Source: Polyangiaceae bacterium
GTDB lineage: Bacteria > Myxococcota_A > Polyangia > Polyangiales > Polyangiaceae
NCBI GenBank assembly: GCA_015075635.1
Contig: JABTUA010000002.1
Span: forward strand, 2,670,708-2,734,707
Direction of reading: 5' to 3'
DNA length: 64,000 bases
A program made the translations under genes and the position numbers. Under the pieces are notes generated by a model. That model saw only the letters and a list, made by a program, of their open reading frames with translations. It was not told the DNA's origin and made no database searches. This document shows, in pieces, positions 46,611 through 57,621 of this stretch. How positions within the stretch are numbered: position 1 is the stretch's first letter; every line of letters starts with the position of its first letter.

Positions 46611-49600
46611 ATGGCCAATCAGAACGAGCGTCTCGTGCGGCTTTTGACCCGGGCTTCTGGGCTGGCTCTCGCTGGCTGGGCGGCGCTGGCAGCCGCGCCC
46701 AAACCGGCCGCTGCGCAGGAGGACGCGAAGTGCCTGAGCCCGGATCCTTCCGTGTGGCCGAAGCCGCAGCGGCCGTACTTCCTGGTCGTCGTGGACACGT
46801 CGGGCAGCATGGCGGCTTGCACGAACCCGGCGACCGCCTGGCCGCAGACCTGCGCAGACGTCGGCGGCGGCGTGAACAACTCGTGCGGATGGCAGCCGCT
46901 TCGCGTCAATGACGCGAAGTGCGCGCTGCGCAACACCATCCAGGCGTTCGCCGGAGAGGCCAATTTCGGCTTGGCCAGCTTCTCGCGCACGATCTCGGGT
47001 TGCCCCGCAGCCTGCAACTGGGGCGAGTTCTGGACGGGCTCCAGCTGGTATCGCTACGCCTACAACGGTTGCTCCTTCGGCGGCAGCGCCTGCGGCGGCG
47101 CCAACATGCTCGTGGGCATGGTGCAGGACCAGGACCCACCGCTGCCCAACAACGTCGCGAGCATGCTGCAGTACATGGACCACAACTGCGGCGACCAGAA
47201 GGAGCTCTTCGCCTACGACGCGACTCCCATCGGCGCGTCGCTCCAGAACGCACGCACGTACTTCCAGAGCGGACTGCCCGGGTTCCCATCCCCACTGACC
47301 GCTGCGGATCGCGCGTGCCGGTCCCTCAACGTCATTCTCATGACGGACGGCGGCGAAACTTGCAGCGGCGACCCAGTGACCGCAGCGCAGCAGCTCTACA
47401 ACGGCTTCACGAAGGACGGGCTCTTCCGGCGCATCTACACCCACGTGATCGCCTTCAACGTGGACGCGCCGGCGGATCAGACGCTGCTCAACAACGTCCA
47501 CAAGATGGGGCAGTGCGGGACGACCACGGGCGCGTGCGCCAGCGCCGTCAACGCGCTCCCAGCCAACAACGAGGTGACGCTCTCGCAAGCTTTCGCCACG
47601 ATCATCTCCGGCGCGATCAAGCCGGAGGTCTGCAACAACGCGGACGACAACTGCAACGGCTGCACGGACGAGGGGTACGCGCACTACTGCAACCAGCGCA
47701 CGGACTGCTGCACGCAGCCACGAGCCACCTGCCTCTCGCAGTACACCGCCTCGATCACGCCCTCGAACCCCCAGGGCGATCTGACCAAGCTGCCCTGCGT
47801 GACCTCGGCGCAGTCGAGCCAGCCGCTGAACTGGCTCTGCTACAACCCGACCGAGCAGTGCAACAACGCTGACGACAACTGCAACGGGCAGACCGACGAG
47901 GGCGTGCTCAAGTGCGGCAACCCGCCCCACTGCCCCACGGCGGAGGTCTGCAACAACGAGGACGACAACTGCGACGGCGTGATCGACAACGCCGCGGGCA
48001 GCGGCGTGCCGTTCAGCGCTTGCCCGAACAACTGCCAGCCCAGCCCCGAGATCTGCGACGGCTGTGACAACGACTGCGACGGCGTCGCGGACGACGGGGT
48101 CGCGGCCATCCCTTGCGGCTTCAGCCCGCCCGGCAACTGCACCGGCACGCAGAGCTGCCAGAGCACGGGCCAGGCCGTCCCCATCGGCGGCTGCGTCGGC
48201 GCCGGCGTGCCCAAGGGCTTCGGCACCTGCGTGAACAACCCGCAGACGGAGATCTGCGACGGCATCGACAACAACTGCAACGGCACCGTGGACGAGGGCA
48301 TCGCACCGACGACCTGCACCATCCCCGGCCAGCCGGGCCTGGTCTACAAGGACACCTTCCCCCCGAGCCAGTGCGTCAAGGGCCAGCTGCCCTGCAACGG
48401 CACCTGCTCCGGCTGGATCGGCCCCAGCGCCGAGATCTGCGACGGAATCGACAACGACTGCGACGGCGTGGTGGACGACGGCGTGCCGGGCGTCGGCCAG
48501 GCCTGCGGCGTCCAGGGCGGCATCTGCACCAAGGGCACCACCGCCTGCGTGGGTGGCGTGCTGGTCTGTCAGGGCGGCACCCCGCCGCAGCCCGAGAGCT
48601 GCAACGGCATCGACGACGACTGCGACGGCCAGGTGGACGACGCGCCGCTGACCGACCAGCCCGCGCAGCCCGGCTGCTGGAACCTGCCCGCCACCGGCTG
48701 CAACCCCGTGTGCAGCCACTCCAACGTCCAGTGGTGCCCGCCCGCCGGCGGCACCTGCACCGGGACCGGCACCCTGACCACCCCGTGTCAGGCCGGCAGC
48801 CTGGTCTGCAACGGCAACCAGGGCTGGAAGTGCCAGGGCGGCAAGACCCCGAGCCCCGAGGTCTGCGACGGCGTGGACAACGACTGCGACGGCACCAAGG
48901 ACGACAACGTCTCCGGCGTCGGCCAGACCTGCGGCAACACCACCCCGCCCTGCCAGCCCGGTCTCACCGCCTGCGTCAACGGCACCATCGAGTGCCAGGG
49001 TGGCGTCAAGCCCACCCCGGAGGTCTGCAACGCCATCGACGACGACTGCAACGGCACCGTCGACGACGGCTTGGGCCTCGGCGGGCCCTGCGCCCCCACC
49101 TACGACACCACCCTCTACCCCGGTGACCGCACCAAGGGCCAGTGCAAGCCCGGCGTCAGCCAGTGCGACACCCAGGGCAGCGGCCAGACCGTCTGCGTCG
49201 GTGGCGTCGGCCCGAGCCCCGAGATCTGCGACGGCATCGACAACGACTGCGACGGCCAGACCGACGAGCCCGGCCCGGCGCCGGACGGCATCGACGGCAC
49301 CGCGAACCCGAGCAACCCGAACCAGAAGATCGGCGACGCCTGCGGCACCGACGAGGGCGAGTGCCAGAAGGGCCAGCTGATCTGCGACAACGGCAAGTTC
49401 GCGTGCGCCAACGGCATCGGACCGCAGCCCGAGAAGTGCGACTGCCTGGACAACGACTGCGACGGCAACATCGACGAGGACGCGCCGGACACGGACGCCG
49501 GCGAGCTCCCCATCTGCAGCCCGGGCAAGTCCTGCGTCGCGCTCGCGGCCGGCGTCTGCCAGTGCGCCGCGCCGTGCAAGGGCGAGATCTGCCCTGGAGG

Positions 49601-57500: not shown

Positions 57501-57621
57501 TTTCAACACCGACGCCGAGGCCGGCGCCGCCTGCAACTTCACCTTCTACACGGTGAACGCGCAGTACAAGCTGTTCGACGTCGGCTACCGTTGCTGCTTC
57601 AGCGCCGACCCAGGCTTGTAG
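54553..57621 (+). CDS. MopE-repeat lipoprotein with SUMF1/FGE-like C-terminal domain
   Basis: The 1022-residue protein has a lipoprotein signal (GVTGC, Cys at about residue 24) and a short Gly/Ser/Thr stalk. About eight MopE-type repeats follow (for example CNGIDDDCNGKIDDG, CDGQDNDCDGLIDN, CDNVDNDCDGSVDEP), some degenerate. From about residue 785 it has a domain like the formylglycine-generating enzyme/sulfatase-modifying factor fold: WITQYEVSRPG, PWFNITPVEAAQTCAARGGR, LCSTAEW, VTGNLREI, LMGGAF and VGYRCC in the expected order. Such domains also serve as ligand-binding folds, so enzyme activity is not implied. ATG 54553 overlaps the copy 2 stop by 4 nt, and a terminator follows. Confidence 0.85.
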   Translation: MKRFGLWAAFVSSAAVGLWGVTGCTTEGFCFDDCGTGGSAASGGTGATDGGGATGGIDIDGSIGGSGGGIVFPDAGDTCVKTGDEMCNGIDDDCNGKIDDGLDWTSPLHCGTCDLNCTQIPHSENQTCEPPGTLDGTTPGTCKFTCEVDFYDDKTKPGTDCDYQCPWNPNGTNTTDPGGAFGCGKDDDCDGTIDEDVDVCKDIDNCGKCGKTCTLPNATAKCVTSAASGTPCTEANTGCQIDQCTGGYADANKSASDGCEYKCPIFPTTAEVCDGQDNDCDGLIDNADPDLTTADQDVGDACFGGTQGICADAANQGLNKCIGGKIECCDQDSNNINGTNPALPVTGLRNGVCDSPNGPQVTKPGDKLETCNGKDDDCDGQNDDNPTDQGGKCGPSDTGNCVKGTEQCQNGALVCVGKIDPAAEICNGQDDDCDGVIDGTVPSGTPTPCTTNAQCTSTQWCAQVGAAKQCVGSPTDAAGDCAPPGLQLPVPAPCQKGALACVGGVKSCVGAVGPTGTTDACGVDTNCDGTLTNQPNPLTDVKNCGPSLPGACGNDCTQLSPGGHGVWACQNGACVRTGCDPGFINCDGNNNDCEKACTFISANEQCNGVDDNCNCQVDENISNAPTAVQVCGVAPSATDTGCLSTAQGGQVQVSCTAGSWQCTFPSGYCTGTKPNYCNATADICDGKDNNCNGAADESYKQPVLNQGYLGQPCASDDGKPPPGDGACKGVGQFICNGTQNGTVCNAVKNNAAAGPELCDNVDNDCDGSVDEPFSAKGTNPTHFVRPAATRVSANLWITQYEVSRPGATNINPGTGNGYQTAAPTGSTIDKTQACSVSGVVPWFNITPVEAAQTCAARGGRLCSTAEWTSMCQATASCTYGYNPRGAACTSGFTGTKYCNLGAFDFDNNPGNGNQDGLLPTASNSLQNCWADWANLQGNVAANNNIRDVTGNLREITFNSTASPGGCSQTATNSTCLFTLMGGAFNTDAEAGAACNFTFYTVNAQYKLFDVGYRCCFSADPGL

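Follow-up and report, generated by a model that had tools for sequence, protein, structure and literature searches.

Tandem putative surface proteins of Polyangiaceae with divergent VWA-type heads, a homogenised MopE stalk and an FGE-fold lipoprotein partner

Background

When two long genes that stand in tandem are nearly identical outside their heads and tails, two questions arise: what has kept their middles alike and their heads apart, and what could such a pair do together with the gene that follows it? These questions are raised by three genes, here called A, B and C, of a Polyangiaceae bacterium (genome G000); the window, that is, the whole stretch of DNA that was analysed, comprises 64,000 nucleotides. 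The original prediction, which was right in the coordinates, the strand, the start codons and both 4-nt overlaps of these genes (GTGA between A and B, ATGA between B and C), did not report the near-identity of A and B. The features considered below are as follows.

45296-46345, minus strand: WYL-type regulator gene (WYL name by sequence appearance), divergent, upstream of A
46611-50591, plus strand: gene A, 1,326 aa; Sec-type signal, VWA head, MopE/Cys-rich stalk (126 Cys), Gly-rich linker, MYXO-CTERM
46722-47618, plus strand: VWA head of A, predicted fold; MIDAS DTSGS / T / D; AlphaFold2 pLDDT 85.6
47616-50479, plus strand: homogenised stalk tract of A, 98.15% identity to B
48265-50110, plus strand: run of 1,846 nt in A without mismatch to 52182-54027 in B
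50463-50567, plus strand: MYXO-CTERM of A; GGGGC motif, hydrophobic stretch, Arg tail
50588-54556, plus strand: gene B, 1,322 aa, GTG start; architecture as gene A
50672-51535, plus strand: VWA head of B, predicted fold; 59.6% DNA identity to head A
51533-54396, plus strand: homogenised stalk tract of B
54380-54484, plus strand: MYXO-CTERM of B; diverges from the sequence of A past the GGGGC motif
54553-57621, plus strand: gene C, 1,022 aa; lipobox VTGC (Cys24), MopE repeats, C-terminal domain of predicted FGE fold
56887-57618, plus strand: FGE/C-type-lectin-like domain of C, predicted fold; AlphaFold2 pLDDT 88.1; GGAFNT, FGE Cys pair not conserved
57645-57675, plus strand: terminator-like hairpin directly 3' of C, 13 bp, 11 of them GC, then TGGTTTT

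Because this strong GC hairpin with its TGGTTTT tail directly follows C and precedes the likely start of pdp (ATG at 57691), transcription of the operon very probably ends there. A scan for sigma-70 promoters upstream of A gave no match, a result of little weight at this GC content. The divergent WYL-type regulator is a candidate that may control the operon; a gene of this type adjoins the operon in about 20 loci of the family and in most loci of the main syntenic type.

Domains of the three proteins

The VWA domain claimed for A and B receives a weak call from Pfam (12.3 bits in A, no match in B), and sequence profiles of the head and of the FGE domain gave nothing significant against the PDB, so that both fold assignments rest on predicted models. 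VWA_2 is matched in 16 of 32 heads of relatives, and the good AlphaFold2 model of the head, the last helix of which ends at about residue 336, superimposes on VWA domains with Z up to 19.1 and an rmsd of 2.6 over 184 residues (Foldseek, VIA-align). The nearest fold is that of Mfa5, a type V pilus tip protein (Z 19.1), with PilB, SpaC, PitA and integrin I domains also among the matches. At the level of the models, the Rossmann-like VWA fold of the heads can be regarded as settled, and the claim holds despite the weak Pfam call. The MIDAS residues of the pattern DxSxS..T..D (D25, S27, S29, T168, D209) are conserved at 90-100% among the 32 heads, which makes a metal dependence of the heads plausible; one distant fused relative (L180/L205) has lost them. 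The VWA fold with MIDAS is what the heads share with the pilus-tip adhesins Mfa5, SpaC, PilB and PitA (Z 16.6-19.1); however, no pilin or fimbria genes were seen at this locus, and the stalk here is MopE/Cys-rich and ends in a MYXO-CTERM tail. Polyangium also has a solitary short VWA-head gene of about 648 aa, with one MopE motif and no adjoining FGE gene (L129:4314-6257, L133:5239-7182, L138:5442-7379).

The MopE repeats were confirmed by Pfam: PF11617 matches 11 stretches in A (E 3e-39), 11 in B (8e-39) and 6 in C (1e-19), with scores of 133, 132 and 70.7 bits, respectively, against a curated cutoff of 27. The stalks of A and B contain about 125 cysteines each, and a search by sequence found no solved structures for the stalk. 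MopE of Methylococcus capsulatus, a secreted or surface protein, resembles the stalk in the PF11617 motif family name; in contrast to the proteins described here, it comes without VWA, MYXO-CTERM or an FGE partner and has a copper site of two histidines and a kynurenine that binds Cu(I), while calcium protects it from proteolysis (PMC3423442). Since histidines are rare here (4-6 in each of the three proteins, and 5-6 in the 1,322-1,326 residues of A and B), calcium appears, from sequence, more likely than copper as the ligand of the stalk, the repeat of which is an Asp/Asn loop; the copper binding raised in the original prediction is thus not supported.

The MYXO-CTERM model (TIGR03901, cutoff 20) scores 19.7 bits in A and 20.5 in B when run on the proteins; the genome scan gives 26.2 bits for A and 26.7 for B. 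Together with the Cys motif, the transmembrane stretch and the Arg tail, the genome-scan scores bear out the predicted MYXO-CTERM-like anchors. MYXO-CTERM proteins are processed by the myxosortase MrtX, sorted to the surface and displayed there (PMC11980579); the best MrtX match in G000 reaches 120.6 bits, the family cutoff being 180. This genome is rich in such surface parts, with 67 MopE, 66 FGE-sulfatase and 99 MYXO-CTERM matches, the latter at E up to 0.1.

Gene C had been described as a lipoprotein with MopE repeats and an FGE-like domain, and this description is upheld by the lipobox, the Pfam repeats, the FGE-sulfatase matches in 15 of 34 C domains of relatives (best 1e-6; no Pfam FGE match in C itself) and the predicted fold. 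The model of the C-terminal domain is good and matches FGE folds with Z 16-17.5, as well as TvpA (a DGR variable protein, Z 16.8), PorK (a T9SS lipoprotein, 15.8) and Mtd (14.5), so that the FGE fold of this domain, as modelled, is settled. TvpA, PorK and Mtd are known for binding or scaffolding, and PorK is an outer-membrane lipoprotein, resembling C as a lipoprotein with an FGE-like fold. The copper-binding Cys pair of FGE is absent from C: comparison by eye with human FGE, the motif of which we take to be GGSYxC, shows GGAFNT in its place, with a Cys there in 0 of 34 aligned relatives; the later FGE Cys is absent in some of the 34. Given that neither C nor its relatives conserve this motif, FGE-type catalysis by C seems unlikely. 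C thus shares the fold of FGE, PvdO, PorK and the DGR variable proteins TvpA and Mtd, but differs in lacking the FGE copper-cysteine motif, in bearing the domain on a MopE stalk and in having VWA partner genes.

Conservation of the gene set

In the genomes analysed, the gene directly after the VWA gene is an FGE gene in 47 cases and a further VWA gene of the set in 11; of the others, 17 reach a contig end, 10 lack an FGE gene within the stretch examined (some of them near contig ends) and 3 are fused. With V for a VWA gene and F for an FGE gene, the syntenic locus slt, WYL, (VVF, VF or VFVF), pdp is kept across the family. The gene order is kept in close relatives, and HMM and fold tests found the VWA, MopE and FGE parts, so that neither outcome that would have spoken against the original prediction was seen. 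A true loss of C in the congeners G001 and G002 is not supported: these bins also lack pdp and the essential metG, which makes it probable that the contig bearing C is absent from them. No plasmid copies of C were found. Among the Myxococcota sampled, the close form (FGE domain E below 1e-85) is almost confined to the family of the window, with G390 and G306 as exceptions outside its order; distant forms are present both in other families of that order and outside it. The carriers include a cultured strain, Polyangium fumosum DSM 14668. Several genomes have a second, more distant pair, VWA-MopE-MYXO-CTERM / MopE-FGE (L104, L105, L106, L107, L108, L092, L143, L145, L148), in which the ORF extends some 400-500 residues further ahead of the VWA head and the FGE gene is shorter.

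In more distant families, at about a dozen loci (L094, L095, L103, L178, L193, L195-L199 and L205 among them), VWA head, MopE stalk and FGE domain form one polypeptide of about 1,650-2,730 residues. Given these natural single-ORF fusions, it is very likely that the VWA and FGE parts work together. The fused relatives show no MYXO-CTERM and no evident lipobox; hence, anchoring by these means is not universal in the set.

Homogenisation of the stalk

The identity of A and B is concentrated in a tract of about 2.86 kb, which includes the 1,846-nt run without mismatch; shuffling the aligned columns 2000 times gave runs of no more than 99, and shuffling only the stalk columns no more than 377, so that chance identity is rejected. 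In G000, dS between A and B is 0.92 in the heads and 0.045 in the stalk. An assembly artefact was likewise rejected: the two heads are unlike each other, the genome is assembled in 5 contigs, and other assemblies show the pattern again, namely, G022 (99.7% over 2.97 kb), G048 (99.6%), G016 (99.7%), G059 (98.6%) and, more weakly, G043 (91%). In A, the tract starts 7 nt past the end of the VWA domain and ends 29 nt into the MYXO-CTERM segment; over the six genomes, which represent five genera, the start lies -8 to +22 nt from the domain end. The end of the head HMM was set by cutting the seed alignment just before the first MopE repeat, and the last helix of the predicted head ends at about the same residue, so that the model gives independent support to a tract border at the end of the VWA domain. 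Among the 16 VWA genes that a contig end truncates in fragmented MAGs, 11 break 75-402 nt past the head, as would be expected if identical stalks collapse in assembly; G002, G008, G019, G051, G052, G060, G074 and G075 are therefore probable further cases.

Within genomes, the stalks are 98-99.7% identical and the heads 53-63%, whereas between genera the A-heads are 77-84% identical and the stalks of the same genera about 71%. In the head tree, the A-heads of G000, G002, G022 and G048 form one clade (100/99), and the AU test rejects same-genome heads as sisters in G000, G022, G048, G059 and G060 (p 2e-5 for G000A+G000B). The stalk tree groups these pairs by genome, and an A-clade of stalks is rejected (AU p 5e-33). 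The A-heads are under strong purifying selection (dN/dS 0.07-0.14). Since the A-heads are orthologous across genera while the stalks group by genome, these phylogenies indicate that the duplication is older than the genera in question and that the stalk has been re-homogenised in each lineage, with the heads kept apart. The homogenising process is most likely recombination between the tandem copies, either gene conversion or unequal crossing-over, and conversion into the heads would be selected against. The process is not constant across lineages, as in six Polyangium genomes the tandem stalks are only about 78% identical, and in the tree the A stalks of different species fall together, as do the B stalks. 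Homogenisation can also act on the C gene instead of the stalk: in G015 (L074 5830-8778, 12841-15918) the two FGE genes are 99.8% identical, with a 2727-nt run, and the two VWA stalks only 78%.

A model of the operon and its alternatives

We consider it rather probable that the operon encodes a two-component, cation-dependent cell-surface adhesin or receptor with interchangeable heads. A and B would be long, disulphide-rich and Asp-rich stalks, lipid-anchored through MYXO-CTERM, each displaying a different MIDAS-type VWA head that would bind its ligand through a divalent cation; C would be an outer-membrane lipoprotein, the non-catalytic FGE-fold domain of which would serve as a shared binding or docking partner. 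The need of both stalks to fit one partner and one machinery might then be what keeps them identical, the heads acting as specificity modules. Adhesion or recognition would fit MIDAS-type heads carried on such stalks with a surface-sorting tail. Against the model count the MrtX match below the family cutoff, the loss of the MIDAS residues in L180/L205, the fused relatives that lack these anchors and the less similar stalks of Polyangium. As to the surface complex envisaged in the original prediction, the conserved gene order, the VWA-FGE fusions, MYXO-CTERM, the lipobox and VWA folds nearest to those of pilus-tip adhesins all speak for it, while a joint function is what we infer from them.

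The stalk identity could instead be a neutral by-product of tandem-repeat recombination with no functional bearing, A and B being ordinary paralogous surface proteins. Long, near-identical tandem repeats recombine readily, the Polyangium pairs are not homogenised, and the loss of homology in the heads could alone halt conversion at the border. However, the border falls at the domain junction in each of six genomes, and divergent heads have been kept over genus-level time, so that we see this as a less probable explanation.

Further evidence on the heads comes from Polyangium, where B-heads show dS of 0.29-0.70 between species as compared to 0.14-0.29 for their own stalks, and A-heads and A-stalks mostly agree in dS among the five closest species. 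Our reading of this pairwise signal, which is not a formal test, is that B-heads have been replaced through recombination with divergent alleles. Such an excess of synonymous divergence is what allele exchange would give if polymorphic heads on a conserved stalk decided which cells adhere, that is, if the operon served kin recognition in the manner of TraA/TraB. TraA, the receptor for outer-membrane exchange in the TraAB system of myxobacteria, combines a variable N-terminal domain with cysteine-rich repeats and MYXO-CTERM and is encoded in an operon with its partner TraB (PMC3820747, PMC6372800), and the operon described here likewise has a varying head, a constant stalk and an operon partner; a Sec signal is common to both. 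Yet the head of TraA is PA14-like and its partner a beta-barrel/OmpA protein, whereas here there are VWA heads, two copies with a shared stalk and an FGE-fold lipoprotein; the TraA family model of NCBIfam has no match in the operon proteins, MYXO-CTERM being the only family at cutoff; and the purifying selection on the A-heads does not suit hypervariable ones. TraA is thus the closest working analogue, but, judging from head fold, partner and family models, A and B are not TraA, and a kin recognition of this kind seems unlikely to us.

Head replacement is also required by another reading, in which a recent tandem duplication of the whole gene in this genome was followed by the replacement of one head, with no continuing concerted evolution. 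Taken by itself, the identity of the stalks in this genome would be compatible with a young duplication, and the Polyangium B-heads suggest that heads can be replaced. In the congener G001 (L069 6315-10445), the head of the position-A gene beside WYL is not an orthologue of head A, which looks as though recombination between stalks had removed or relocated heads. Nevertheless, VVF occupies the same locus and the A-heads are orthologous in G000, G022 and G048 (an A-head is found also in G002), and near-identity of the stalks is confined to copies from one genome, a pattern that holds in five genera with the same tract borders. A recent origin would need an independent duplication and head replacement each time, always with the same A-head in place, which we deem quite improbable.

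Finally, a role in copper capture or FGE-type oxidation, with copper-binding MopE repeats and C as an active copper-dependent enzyme, is suggested by the family names Cu-binding_MopE and FGE-sulfatase but hardly credible given the paucity of histidines, the Asp/Asn loops and the missing FGE cysteines described above; copper handling by the operon proteins is unlikely.

Implications

To whom social and predatory myxobacteria adhere is decided by their surface proteins, and among such loci we found only traAB described in molecular detail. A search of open-licence papers, which was not exhaustive, found no description of the domain and gene combination considered here. The operon, interpreted as an adhesin or receptor with interchangeable heads, presents a conserved, undescribed set of partners, the joint action of which is supported by natural fusions and which is present in a cultured strain. 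It also offers a clean natural example of concerted evolution that affects a single part of a protein, in which the cause of the border, selection on the heads versus loss of homology, is directly testable. More tentatively, and with less confidence than we attach to the adhesin model itself, it might be envisaged that conversion bounded at the domain junction matches the common stalk of tandem surface proteins to a single FGE-fold lipoprotein, while their exchangeable VWA heads pass between species; the operon would then be a second kin- or prey-recognition locus of these bacteria, besides traAB.
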